DNA of 64,000 nt. It comes from Ensifer sp. IC4062 (lineage in GTDB: Bacteria; Pseudomonadota; Alphaproteobacteria; Rhizobiales; Rhizobiaceae). The stretch is from positions 1 through 64,000 of the forward strand of contig NZ_JADYVD010000006.1 of the NCBI RefSeq assembly GCF_020193575.1, read 5' to 3'. Positions 33,224 through 38,105 of the stretch are shown here, piece by piece (the first letter of the stretch is position 1; every line of letters begins with the position of its first letter). The position numbers and the translations under genes are program-made. Under the pieces are notes generated by a model that saw nothing but the letters and a program-made list of their open reading frames with translations, was not told the DNA's origin and made no database searches.

Positions 33224-33943
33224 TTATTGCGCGGCCTGGCGCGATGACTGCAGCTTTTCGTCGATCTGCCGCGAAAGGATGGCGGAAAACTCGTCGGCAA
33301 AAGCCTCCATACGCGCTGTCAGCTTGCCGGCATCGGCGGAAAACTTGTTGTAGGCGATAACGGCCGGAATAGCGGCGAGCAGGCCGATGGCGGTCGCAAG
33401 AAGCGCCTCGGCGATGCCGGGCGCGACGACGGCAAGGTTGGTCGATTTCGAGCCGGCGATTGCCTGGAACGAAGTCATGATACCAACGACCGTGCCGAAG
33501 AGGCCGATGAAGGGAGCGGCCGAGCCGATGGTCGCCAGCGATCCGAGCCTTGCCTCGAGCGTCTCGGATTCACGAGCGAGCGTCACGTCCATGGCGCGGT
33601 CGATACGCATCTGCAGGCCGATCGGCGAGCGGGCTCCGCGCTCGAAGCTCTTCTTCCACTCGCGCATGGCGGAGACGAAGATCGCGCCCATGCCGGCCGT
33701 CTGCCGGTCGGACAGCGTGCGATAGAGCTCCTCAAGCGATTGGCCGGACCAGAAAACCTGCTCAAAATTGTCGAGCTGACGGCGAACACGACCGTAGTTC
33801 AACGTTTTGTCGACGACGATACCCCAGGTCCAGACGGAGGCTGCGATCAACCCCAGCATGACCAGCTTCACGACAAGGCCCGCTTCCATGAACAGCGACC
33901 AGAGGGTCACATCGCTCGTCGCGGCCAATCCAACCTGTTCCAT
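33224..33943 (-). CDS. tolQ: Tol motor protein TolQ
   Basis: TolQ forms the five-subunit ring of the Tol motor. The 239-residue protein has three transmembrane helices: one near the N-terminus (about 20-40, [19 protein letters not shown]) and two after a cytoplasmic domain ([21 protein letters not shown] and [22 protein letters not shown]), with the conserved residues of the MotA/TolQ/ExbB family. I chose the ATG at 33943 (GGAAAC just upstream) over an open extension to 34054. In most relatives ybgC lies just upstream of tolQ; here ku and ligD are in between. Confidence 0.96.
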
Positions 33944-34232
33944 CGTTTCCAGTCCCCGAATCCAAATACCCGGCAAGAGCGGTTCATGCTCATGACCGGG
34001 TCGCCCAAACGTCCTGTTGCAAAAATGCCCCGGCATCGCCGCTGATCGCGGCATTGCGATCTAATGCTTCAGGTTGCCTTCTTGCCGTCAATTTTGGTCA
34101 AAGGATGACGTGCACTGCACAAATCCTAATGCACGGATTAAGACACCATTATGGTTAAAGGAATGTTACCGGGCAGACATTCCTGTGGCGGACGCTCTGG
34201 AACTTCACCGCGCTGTGGCACGTTTTCCTCGC

Positions 34233-34526
34233 ATGACGCTCCAGATGTCCGGAAAAGCCGATGAGAAATCGCCGCCACGGCTCGACCCTCGCGACCGGTT
34301 GATCCTTGCGCTTTACGCGCAATTGAAGGCCGAGCGAGAGACCCGTTGCGCCTTCGAGGAGGCGATCGCAGACGGTGTGCTTTCGAAGGAGGTGCTCCAG
34401 GCGCTGCTCGCCGATCCCGTTCCTGCCGTCACCGGGGAGCACATCGCTGCCATCGAACGCGTGCTTGCCCGTGAGCCTCCTCGCAACGAGCGGGAACCGC
34501 AGCCGCGCCGCAGGCTCGGCCGGTGA
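34233..34526 (+). CDS. Small hypothetical protein before ku
   Basis: A 97-residue frame (MTLQMSGKADEKSPPRLDPRDRLILALYAQLKAERE... written here in part) that is mostly charged and helical with an Arg/Pro-rich tail. It ends 12 bases before the ku start on the same strand, so it could be cotranscribed. No family is recognised. The start is uncertain: there is no good ribosome site at 34233, 34245 is another ATG, and the frame is open back to 34074. It could also be non-coding; codon composition is its main support. Confidence 0.4.
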   Translation: MTLQMSGKADEKSPPRLDPRDRLILALYAQLKAERETRCAFEEAIADGVLSKEVLQALLADPVPAVTGEHIAAIERVLAREPPRNEREPQPRRRLGR

Positions 34527-34538
34527 AGGGGGGGAACC

Positions 34539-35009
34539 ATGGCGGCTCGCGCACTTTGGAAAGGTCAACTTCGTCTCTCGCTAGTTTCGATCCCGGTCGA
34601 GCTGTTCAGTGCGACCCGCTCGGGCGCCAGCGTCTCTTTCCGCCAGATCCACAAGCCTTCGGGAAAGCCGATCCACTACCAGAAGGTGGTGGAAGGCGTC
34701 GGGCCGGTCGGCGTCGGCGACATCGTCAAGTACGAGTGCGAGGACGACAAATACATTCTGCTCGACCCAAAGGAAGTGGATTCGATCAAGCTTGAGACAG
34801 AGAAGACCCTGAAACTGGTCCAAATCCTCGGCGTCACCGACATCTCGCCCCCCGTCGCCGTCGAGGAAGGCGAGCGCCCGGAACGGCACGGCGACAATGT
34901 CGTTGACCTCATGGCGGCGCTGAAGAAGAGCCTCGAAGCAGGCGAGGGCAAGAAATCGCAGCCAAAGGCGCAATCCTCCTCGCGCCGCGGCCGGCGGAAA
35001 TCGGCATGA
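34539..35009 (+). CDS. ku: Ku-like end-joining protein with core deletion
   Basis: Bacterial Ku binds broken DNA ends and recruits LigD. The N-terminal ~92 residues (MAARALWKGQLRLSLVSIPVELFSATRSG, FRQIHKPSGKPIHYQKVV, YILLDPKEVDSIKLETEKTLKLVQ) and the C-terminal tail (NVVDLMAALKKSLEAG, then a basic end) match the Ku family. The total is only 156 residues against about 260-300 normally. The central ~130 residues, which complete the DNA-encircling ring (the PYYLxP...-type core), are absent without loss of frame. It lies just before ligD. It is either a degraded gene or a reduced LigD partner; I lean to degraded or non-ring-forming. Confidence 0.85.
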   Translation: MAARALWKGQLRLSLVSIPVELFSATRSGASVSFRQIHKPSGKPIHYQKVVEGVGPVGVGDIVKYECEDDKYILLDPKEVDSIKLETEKTLKLVQILGVTDISPPVAVEEGERPERHGDNVVDLMAALKKSLEAGEGKKSQPKAQSSSRRGRRKSA

Positions 35010-35018
35010 GGACGATCC

Positions 35019-37616
35019 ATGGCCGCTCGCAATGAATCTCTTTCCGAATACAACCGACGACGCGACTTTACGAGAACGAGCGAGCCCAAAGGAACTGTCG
35101 CCGGGGCACATGCTGGCCGGAAGCGTTTTCTAGTCCAGAAACACGATGCCACCCGGCTGCACTACGATTTCCGCCTCGAATGGGAGGGCGTGCTGAAAAG
35201 CTGGGCCGTAACGCGCGGCCCGAGCCTCGACCCGGAGGACAAGCGCCTTGCAGTGCGCACCGAAGATCATCCCTTGGCCTACGGCGACTTCGAGGGCACG
35301 ATACCGGAAGGAGAGTACGGCGGCGGCACGGTGATGCTTTGGGACACGGGGTGGTGGGAGCCGGAAGACGACCCATCCGAAGGTCTGAAGAAAGGCAAAC
35401 TCTCGTTTCAGTTGCACGGGAAGCGGATGAGCGGTGGCTGGGCGCTGGTGCGCATGCGGCCGCGCGAGGGCGAAAAGCGCGAAAACTGGCTGCTGATCAA
35501 GGAAAATGACAAAGCCGCCTCAGAGGACGGGGAGCATCTCGTCAAAGCGAACCTTACAAGCGTCCGCACCGGCCGTACCATGGATGAAATTGCTGAGGGC
35601 AAGGGCGAAAAACGGGCACGCGTCTGGCATTCGAACAGGAGCACGGCGGCCAATCTCAAGGCTGGCGCGGTTGCCGAGAACAATAAACGACGCAAGCGCC
35701 CAACGCGAAAATCCTCCGGAAAGCTGCCCGCCTTCAAGGCACCGCAGCTTGCGACCCTGGTTGCAAAGGCACCCTCCGGAGACGAATGGCTGAACGAAGC
35801 CAAGTTCGACGGCTACCGCTTGATGGCCGCTGTCGGAGGCGACACCGTCCGTTGCTACACGCGCAATGGTCTCGATTGGACCGAGAAGTTCCCGGCGATT
35901 GCCTCCGCTCTTGCCGAGCTCGATTGTAGCTCTGCCCTGATCGACGGTGAGGTGGTGGCGCTGTCGGAGGAAGGTTCGACTTTTTCGGCCCTGCAAAAAG
36001 CGCTGAGGACCGGCGCCAGCACACGGCTCTACGCCTTCGATCTTCTCGAACTCGACGGCAAGGACCTGAGTCGCAAGCCACTTCTCGAGCGAAAGGAGCA
36101 ACTGAAGGCCTTGCTCGACACGCTCGGCAGCACCTCGACCGTTCAGTACAGCGAGCACGTCCAGGGCAACGGCGAACATGTGCTCGCCGCCATATGCAAG
36201 GCGGGACAGGAAGGTATTATCGCGAAGGTCGCGAATGCTCCCTATCGCAGCGGACGCACTCGAAGCTGGCTGAAAGTCAAATGCACAAAACGCCAGGAGT
36301 TCGTCATTGGCGGTTATACCCCGTCGACAAAAAAAGGGCGCGCTTTTGCATCAATCCTTCTCGGCACTTTCGAGGCTGACAAACTGGTTTACCGGGGCGG
36401 CGTCGGCACCGGCTTCGGGCGAAAGACCATGGAAGAGCTTGCGGTCGCCTTCGCGAAGCGCAGGCGCAAGACGTCACCGTTCGATAGCGTGCCAAGAGAA
36501 AGGGACCGTGATGCCGTCTGGCTGATCCCCGATCTTGTGGCAGAGGTGGATTTCGCAGAATTTACGGCTGACGGACATATCCGCCATGGCTCATTCGAGG
36601 GATTACGCGAGGACAAGGAGGCCAAGGCCGTGAAACTGGAAAGACCGAAGCCGACGGACCCCACGGCCGAGACCGGGAAGGGCAAACGCGCGACCAGGGC
36701 ACGGACAGTGGCGCCCGCCAAGGGCGATGCCGATGTTTTCGGGATTCGCATCTCGCATCCGGACCGCGTTCTCTTTGCAGGCCAAGGCGTCACCAAGATC
36801 GATCTCGCCCGCTACTATGCCGTCGTCGCGGACAGGATGCTGCCTTCCGCGGCCGATCACCCTCTTTCGCTGGTCCGATGCCCGCAAGGCGGACAGCGGC
36901 AATGCTTCTACCAAAAACATGCCAGCGACGGCTTTCCGCAGGAGATTCGCGAAGTCCCGATCAAGGAGGCCTCGGGCGAAACCGAGAAATATATGTACGT
37001 TCGCGATGCCAAAGGCCTTATTGCAGCGGTGCAGATGGGCACGCTGGAGTTTCACATCTGGGGTGCATCGATCGACCGGCTGGAAAAGCCCGATCGCCTG
37101 GTCTTCGATCTCGACCCAGATCCGAGCGTCGACTTCGCCACGGTCAAGGCGGCTGCCGGCAGCCTTCGGGATGAACTAGCCGATATCGGCCTCAGAACAG
37201 TTGCCATGGTAACCGGCGGCAAGGGCGTTCACGTGATTGTGCCGCTTCGGCCGCACGCCGAATGGGACGAGGCCAAGGGATTTGCCAAGAAGATGGCGCA
37301 GCGTTTCGCGGATCGCGACCCGGACCACTTCGTTGCCACGATGTCGAAGGCGAAGCGAAAGGGGCGGATCTTCATCGATTGGCTCAGGAACGACCGCGGC
37401 GCGACCGCGATCGCTCCCTACTCTACCCGCGCCCGTGCAGGTGGCCCCGTCGCCACTCCGGTCAGTTGGGAGGAACTCGAAGACCTCGAAGCCGCCAACA
37501 CATTCCACATCCCGGACATCCTCGAACGCATCGAATCCGGCACAGATCCATGGGCGGATATCAGCGAAATCAAGCAGTCGCTGACGAAAAAGATACTGAG
37601 CTCTGTCGCCGACTGA
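35019..37616 (+). CDS. ligD: Multifunctional DNA repair ligase LigD
   Basis: LigD trims, fills and seals DNA double-strand breaks in bacterial non-homologous end joining. The 865-residue protein has the order phosphoesterase (about 10-190, QKHDATRLHYDFRLEW ... DFEGTIPEGEYGGGTVMLWD), ATP-dependent ligase (about 235-530, with nucleotidyl lysine K262 in EAKFDGYR), and primase-polymerase (from about 571 with the metal-binding FDLDPDP near 695). All key motifs appear intact. It starts nine bases after the shortened ku. Both run opposite to the tol genes and split ybgC from tolQ. Confidence 0.96.
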   Translation: MAARNESLSEYNRRRDFTRTSEPKGTVAGAHAGRKRFLVQKHDATRLHYDFRLEWEGVLKSWAVTRGPSLDPEDKRLAVRTEDHPLAYGDFEGTIPEGEYGGGTVMLWDTGWWEPEDDPSEGLKKGKLSFQLHGKRMSGGWALVRMRPREGEKRENWLLIKENDKAASEDGEHLVKANLTSVRTGRTMDEIAEGKGEKRARVWHSNRSTAANLKAGAVAENNKRRKRPTRKSSGKLPAFKAPQLATLVAKAPSGDEWLNEAKFDGYRLMAAVGGDTVRCYTRNGLDWTEKFPAIASALAELDCSSALIDGEVVALSEEGSTFSALQKALRTGASTRLYAFDLLELDGKDLSRKPLLERKEQLKALLDTLGSTSTVQYSEHVQGNGEHVLAAICKAGQEGIIAKVANAPYRSGRTRSWLKVKCTKRQEFVIGGYTPSTKKGRAFASILLGTFEADKLVYRGGVGTGFGRKTMEELAVAFAKRRRKTSPFDSVPRERDRDAVWLIPDLVAEVDFAEFTADGHIRHGSFEGLREDKEAKAVKLERPKPTDPTAETGKGKRATRARTVAPAKGDADVFGIRISHPDRVLFAGQGVTKIDLARYYAVVADRMLPSAADHPLSLVRCPQGGQRQCFYQKHASDGFPQEIREVPIKEASGETEKYMYVRDAKGLIAAVQMGTLEFHIWGASIDRLEKPDRLVFDLDPDPSVDFATVKAAAGSLRDELADIGLRTVAMVTGGKGVHVIVPLRPHAEWDEAKGFAKKMAQRFADRDPDHFVATMSKAKRKGRIFIDWLRNDRGATAIAPYSTRARAGGPVATPVSWEELEDLEAANTFHIPDILERIESGTDPWADISEIKQSLTKKILSSVAD

Positions 37617-37637: not shown

Positions 37638-38105
37638 CTACTCGACTCGGGTCGGAGCCTTGTGTCCCGCCGCCAGGAACTTTATCGCCAGCGCTTCCGG
37701 CAAACGGCGTGGTCGGGCCTGCCCGTTGATGACAGCGATGATGACCTTGGCAGCGATCAGCAGCACGCCATCGCGGCGGATCTCCTGCTGCAGCACCATT
37801 TTGGCGCCGCCCGCCCTCTCGGTCGTCGTTTCGATGGTCAGTATATCGTCCATGCGGGCAGGCAACTTGAAGTCAATCTCCATGCGATGGACGACGAAGA
37901 CGAGGCCTTCCGTATCGCCTTCGATGGCAAGCGATGCCTGTTCGACGCCGAGCAGCCGCAGGTAGTCGGTTCTGGCCCGCTCCATGAAGTGCAGATAGCG
38001 CGCATGATAGACGACCCCAGAAAAATCGGTGTCCTCATAATAGACCCGCTGCACGAGTCGGTGGCCGTTTTCGGTCAGTTCGCCCGCGAGCGAAATCAGT
38101 GACAT
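37638..38105 (-). CDS. ybgC: Tol-Pal-associated acyl-CoA thioesterase YbgC
   Basis: YbgC is a cytoplasmic hot-dog-fold thioesterase always found with tol-pal genes. The 155-residue protein has VYYEDTDFSGVVYHARYLHFMERARTDYL, with the catalytic Asp in EDTDFSG. Its stop faces the ligD stop (21 bases apart, convergent). Its usual place is just before tolQ; here about 3.7 kb of ku/ligD sequence intervenes, so it must be transcribed separately from tolQ. Confidence 0.92.
   Translation of the reverse strand: MSLISLAGELTENGHRLVQRVYYEDTDFSGVVYHARYLHFMERARTDYLRLLGVEQASLAIEGDTEGLVFVVHRMEIDFKLPARMDDILTIETTTERAGGAKMVLQQEIRRDGVLLIAAKVIIAVINGQARPRRLPEALAIKFLAAGHKAPTRVE

Follow-up and report, generated by a model that had tools for sequence, protein, structure and literature searches.

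The 156-codon open reading frame that precedes ligD in the 64,000-nucleotide stretch of DNA analyzed here from Ensifer sp. IC4062, a soil bacterium with legume symbionts among its relatives (contig NZ_JADYVD010000006.1, positions 1 to 64,000; hereafter the window) is very probably the decaying relic of a ku gene that was once paired in cis with this ligD, with LigD itself kept, most likely through a Ku acting in trans. An in-frame deletion of 381 bp removed half of the Ku core, including the counterparts of the arm residues that contact DNA, and LigD, an apparent LigD4 orthologue, has stayed under normal selection, most likely serving a Ku3/Ku4-like pair in trans. The frame would stay open because ligD expression suffers least from deletions that leave ribosomes able to translate as far as ligD, be it through coupling by termination-reinitiation or through avoided polarity. 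That LigD works in this strain with the trans pair, and that coupling accounts for the open frame, are our inferences. Known biology accounts for most of the finding, and the in-frame bias is the part that goes beyond plain decay; the observations that argue against plain decay are the stop-free frame, an omega below 1 over the whole branch, the complete tail motif, and the fact that all measurable deletions are multiples of three.

Relative to the 284-aa full-length cis ku of Ensifer sp. IC3342 (L035/G027), with which its position, start, tail, stop, and spacing to ligD agree, the stop-free frame at 34539..35009 (+) has lost 127 codons and, separately, the codon for Gly65 (Table 1); the 381-bp gap was obtained each time in DNA alignments to G027, G032, and G005. 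A preliminary description of this DNA, made from the letters alone, had correctly seen an intact frame with Ku at both ends and an in-frame central loss, although the retained parts, put there at about 92 and 45 residues, are in fact 104 and 52 residues long and the loss of "about 130" residues is exactly 127 codons plus Gly65. The joint that it read, KTLKLVQ-ILGVTDIS, must be discarded, for ILGVTDIS belongs to the N-terminal part (FVGVTDIS in the full-length orthologue) and the real joint is TDISP/PVAVEEG. The match to the Pfam Ku family (PF02735) covers positions 2-88 of 190 and exceeds that family's own cut-off of 25 bits, whereas the match to TIGR02772 (Ku_bact; positions 1-102 of 259) reaches 105.6 bits and falls below the cut-off of 150. 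Among the 32 full-length Ku proteins aligned, out of 65 available, Gly65 and Phe97 are invariant; the window ku has the former deleted and the latter changed. All eight tail residues that are invariant in this set are present in the short form, so that the conservation previously ascribed to the tail holds for the LigD-binding motif but not for residues 57-105, which carry eight amino-acid changes relative to the nearest relative, G027 (Phe97 among them), as opposed to none in residues 1-56.

Table 1. Coordinates of the ku remnant, ligD, and neighboring features in the window.
Feature	Position	Strand	Description and basis
tolQ, divergent neighbor	33224..34054	-	tblastn at eight loci including the window's; name in line with synteny
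Small ORF upstream of ku	34233..34526	+	97 aa from a chosen start; ends 12 bp before ku
ku remnant, N part	34539..34850	+	104 codons = orthologue residues 1-105 minus Gly65; alignment to L035/G027; PF02735, 53.2 bits
Gly65 codon absent	between 34730 and 34731	+	alignment to the full-length orthologue L035/G027
Deletion junction	34850..34851	+	381 bp (residues 106-232) gone, in frame; DNA alignment; joint TDISP/PVAVEEGERPER by alignment to the full-length orthologue
ku remnant, C part	34851..35009	+	52 codons (residues 233-284) and stop TGA at 35007-35009; alignment
C-terminal motif GDNVVDLMAALKKSLE	34890..34937	+	putative minimal C-terminal region for LigD interaction, judging from its position and published work
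ku stop overlapping Shine-Dalgarno-like TGAGGA	35007..35012	+	9 bp from ku stop to ligD ATG
ligD (putative LigD4 orthologue)	35019..37616	+	865 aa; phosphoesterase, ligase, and primase-polymerase domains
ybgC, convergent neighbor	37638..38105	-	contains DTDFSGVVYHARY; translation; synteny

What such a protein could still do may be gauged from Bacillus subtilis Ku, for which passages of two reports distinguish a core, a minimal C-terminal region, and an extended C-terminal region (PMC13201618; PMC12784961). As described in part of the former, interaction with LigD falls to the minimal C-terminal domain, and the core acts in threading and final ligation (PMC13201618), and an excerpt of the latter gives much less DNA binding for an R126/R161/R188 triple mutant (PMC12784961). 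Like B. subtilis Ku, the window ku retains the region matching the LigD-interacting tail; unlike it, the window ku has lost the counterparts of these three arginines (K110, R146, and R173, matched by alignment with an inferred chain-numbering offset of 17), which fall in the deleted stretch. Judged by sequence, the minimal C-terminal region is thus present and the complete core (bsKu 18-244), which forms the DNA-encircling homodimer, is missing; with half of that core deleted, including the counterparts of the arm DNA contacts, the short protein should be unable to build a DNA-threading ring. Structure prediction (pTM 0.21 and mean pLDDT 56.6 for the short form) supports neither side, since the full-length control, made from a similarly shallow alignment, was also poor (pTM 0.46, mean pLDDT 55.3).

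The adjoining LigD, by comparison, retains the phosphoesterase, ligase, and polymerase domains that had been noticed at the outset. Its gene lies between tolQ and ybgC in the window and at the other seven loci compared, including that of G015, which matches S. meliloti, and a passage of PMC12794305 names the S. meliloti LigD that interrupts the tol-pal cluster as LigD4. Because these flanks mark the LigD4 slot of S. meliloti, the window LigD is placed, by synteny, as the orthologue of S. meliloti LigD4. The latter is reportedly also the subject of work by Dupuy et al. from 2019.

The region in front of this ligD was surveyed in 33 genomes of the genus, in 32 of which ku could be scored (G030 being the exception). 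A full-length cis ku is present in 15 of the 33 and absent from 17; the latter comprise four with an in-frame internal deletion (the window genome G000, G026, G008, and G020), two with a frameshift (G021 and G031), and 11 with a stub or no ku (G001, G002, G009, G012-G017, G023, and G025). LigD is intact in all 15 genomes with a full cis ku and in 14 of the 17 without it, the damaged cases being G002, G009, and G025. In the family at large, the matches listed include a stop-free one of full length, with an identity of at least 59%, for at least 63 of 394 genomes, a count made by match alone and not by neighbors. On the LigD protein tree, the full-length state requires 10 changes, at least seven of which fall on well-supported branches, and the four in-frame short forms represent four separate events. 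To the question of which form came first, raised in the preliminary description, related strains give a clear answer: full-length ku is ancestral and the short form derived, and the cis ku has been lost repeatedly and independently while LigD has mostly been retained. A close parallel is the 148-aa short Ku of Ensifer sp. MPMI2T (P0002, G026), which likewise adjoins an intact LigD and has lost an internal stretch in frame, although its deletion (408 bp, edges at residues 63-198) is a separate event. Unlike the full-length cis ku of other Sinorhizobium, the window gene is devoid of 381 bp of core and of Gly65 and is under relaxed selection; unlike the S. meliloti-matching G015 and the two genomes closest to it, G014 and G023, none of which has a cis ku, the window keeps a core-less relic. 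Other core-less Ku proteins occur in the database (P0004, P0015, and P0048, with deletions of about residues 106-238, 96-245, and 45-198, respectively); these come from the best 120 of 331 matches and were detected via open frames, and hence constitute a biased sample.

Selection was assessed with a branch model (codon model, F3x4, LigD topology) written for this analysis, in which the ku omega of the whole branch includes the time before the deletion. On the window ku branch, omega is 0.365 against a background of 0.051 (2dlnL 17.5, p=2.8e-5), and yet fully neutral evolution over the whole branch is weakly rejected (omega below 1, p=0.029); the dN/dS comparison that had been proposed earlier returns relaxed selection. 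An omega below 1 over the whole branch fits a deletion that occurred part-way along it: with an omega of 0.051 up to the deletion and of 1 thereafter, about a third of the branch would postdate the event by our own arithmetic. Relaxation is most pronounced in residues 57-105 (0.474 vs 0.015, p=9.5e-5; p=0.29 against omega=1) and extends to the tail (0.326 vs 0.083, p=0.046), whereas LigD on the same branch gives 0.122 vs 0.113 (p=0.73). The short ku of the window is therefore under relaxed selection and the window LigD is not. The other in-frame short forms are less uniform: in G026 the short ku has an omega of 0.287 (p=0.065) and LigD is somewhat relaxed (0.235 vs 0.110, p=0.015), in G020 the values are 0.171 (p=0.046) for ku and 0.111 (p=0.43) for LigD, and in G008 relaxation is seen neither in ku (0.068 vs 0.059, p=0.7) nor in LigD (0.091, p=0.96). 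With G008 unrelaxed, the G026 and G020 effects weak, and the G026 LigD itself relaxed, the contrast between ku and LigD is clear for the window and not for every short form. Full-length comparison branches behave like the background (G027, p=0.38; G022, p=0.072) or are more constrained (G032).

A Ku partner elsewhere in the genome, which the preliminary description had surmised, is readily available, as the window genome holds three intact ku genes besides the short one. One, of 291 aa, is on contig C121 next to an 824-aa LigD, and the other two form an adjacent pair on C164 (L177; 302 and 273 aa), with no LigD match within 10 kb around them. This pair is 80% and 88% identical to the ku pair on pSymB of S. 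meliloti 1021, beside which no LigD was found in the 8 kb read. The pSymB pair is what we take to be Ku3/Ku4; in strain ml47, both genes of the pair are annotated merely as "Ku protein". Two pathways, Ku2-LigD2 and Ku3/Ku4-LigD4, are attributed to S. meliloti in a passage of PMC12844678 (citing Kobayashi 2008). The window genome resembles this LigD4-Ku3/Ku4 arrangement in having its LigD in the tolQ/ybgC slot, a ku pair orthologous to that of pSymB with no LigD beside it, and a second ku-ligD locus, and the window LigD thus most likely serves the Ku3/Ku4-like pair on C164; the pair is preferred over the C121 ku as a candidate partner because the latter has its own LigD. Nevertheless, an excerpt of PMC10932983 ascribes a role after ionizing radiation to each of the four S. 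meliloti ku genes, the greatest to sku2, and LigD partners besides the pair are thus also possible.

Across the genus, every one of the 17 genomes that have no full cis ku carries ku matches beyond ku2, compared with 10 of the 15 that have one (Fisher p=0.015), as counted by match and not by individual reading; when kinship is taken into account, about 2.5 independent pairs are in agreement and none in disagreement, which is the right direction but carries no power. In an exploratory comparison of four genomes (G004, G011, G019, and G027), LigD adjoins the ku pair and the cis ku is full length. The pair of G027 (C29, L183) has its own ligase-polymerase LigD, and none was found beside the pair in the window genome; in G026, a LigD fragment adjoins the pair.

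Why the frame of a relic should have remained open is addressed by the idea that the translated stretch matters and not its protein, through delivery of ribosomes to ligD or protection from Rho. We would put this component of the favored explanation at somewhat under an even chance. Internal deletions whose lengths could be measured amount to 381, 408, 123, 36, 303, and 333 bp, all six of them multiples of three (P=0.0014, taking one chance in three per deletion); the addition of the 736-bp deletion of G016 leaves six of seven in frame (P=0.007), and the strictest count is four of five (P=0.045). In G001, which is too eroded for measurement, the N- and C-terminal remnants share one frame. The Shine-Dalgarno-like sequence that overlaps the ku stop is consistent with coupling, as is the stop-to-ATG spacing, which is 8-9 bp at all 19 of the compared loci where ku is in frame. 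In G016 (L120), six ku codons are left, followed by a TGA that overlaps an ATG in the frame of the tail, from which translation could restart and run up to ligD. The events are few, however, and the true weight of the in-frame count is smaller than it appears, since the 36-bp and 123-bp deletions both lie in the G008 gene and the G021 deletion was measured against a distant relative, in a gene that also has a 1-bp frameshift. Nor can coupling be strict, given that ku is frameshifted and LigD intact in G021 and G031; LigD also persists in G012-G015, G017, and G023, where no ku was found, and in G025 the deletion runs into ligD and leaves out-of-frame pieces. Coupling is, moreover, described in part of PMC10666635 as acting mostly at overlaps and as almost abolished at about 20 nt, which makes 9 nt borderline. 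The multiple-of-three deletions hint that selection maintains translation as far as ligD.

The second alternative of the preliminary description, a functional minimal Ku that builds no DNA ring and whose LigD-binding tail tunes, chaperones, or recruits LigD, or which perhaps joins other Ku proteins through its N-terminal strands, is improbable in our estimation. Its appeal lies in the open frame, the eight retained tail residues, the unchanged residues 1-56, and the separate origins of in-frame short forms in G026, G008, and G020 (that of G008 unrelaxed), to which the short database forms P0004, P0015, and P0048 may be added with the caveat of their biased detection. A minimal Ku would indeed be expected to keep frame and tail, yet it leaves unexplained both the relaxed selection in the window, strongest in residues 57-105, and the complete loss of the gene in relatives with intact LigD; the invariant Gly65 and Phe97 are gone, and the parts retained differ from one relative to the next. 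Of the observations that had suggested it, the intact tail motif and the in-frame character of the measurable deletions stand, but they lend it little positive support because a frame running into ligD can explain both. The related proposition that core-less fragments consisting of N-terminal strands and LigD-binding tail recur in the genus and are kept temporarily as small LigD adaptors appears, if anything, slightly less credible still; if true, a DNA-binding Ku in cis would not be needed to hold or tune LigD. An assembly artefact, in which the missing stretch would have been collapsed in this single assembly, is very unlikely, even though the protein-database cluster of the exact window form has a single member on a single contig. 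The deletion edges have at most a few bases in common and no repeats, so that a repeat collapse is not suggested, the retained DNA carries substitutions of its own and the separate 3-bp deletion, and the assemblies of relatives show different deletions. The first alternative of the preliminary description, namely a decayed ku and a LigD working with Ku from elsewhere, is by comparison well supported by the full-length ancestor, the independent losses with LigD kept, the relaxation of ku and not of LigD, the three other ku genes, and the S. meliloti precedent.

The decayed-ku reading portrays a repair operon that is changing partners, its ligD mostly kept and its own ku lost several separate times within one genus, in genomes with other ku genes. 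The multiple-of-three deletions can serve as a natural experiment on whether the frame of an upstream relic is kept open to benefit the gene that follows. For annotators, a "Ku" beside LigD may be a relic, and counts of ku genes can overstate repair capacity.

Several minor features of the locus and its relatives were also recorded. The small frame upstream of ku, which has no match in Pfam or NCBIfam, possibly belongs to the same operon; among 29 loci examined, 19 have no match to it, eight near relatives match it at 88-93%, and G017, where it precedes ligD without a ku, matches it at 62%. In G012-G015 and G023, where ku is likewise absent, ligD follows a leader stretch that the window has upstream of the small frame and ku, and the conservation of this stretch may be due to tolQ, since it also precedes that divergent gene. 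The synonymous divergence (dS) from G027 is 0.05 in residues 1-56 (34539-34706) and 0.17 in residues 57-105 (34707-34850), a step that may be a recombination edge. Elsewhere in the window genome, contig C109 (L179 1104-2059) carries an ATP-dependent ligase that is of the same type as the ligase domain of LigD and is divided between two frames. Lastly, the LigD4 orthologues of G002 and G009 (L180 and L181), beside which no cis ku was found, lack the ligase domain (about residues 231-518 or more) and retain the phosphoesterase and polymerase parts, and in G025 (L182), where pieces of ku in two frames run into a truncated ligD, the orthologue is reduced to residues 518-865, mainly the polymerase part.
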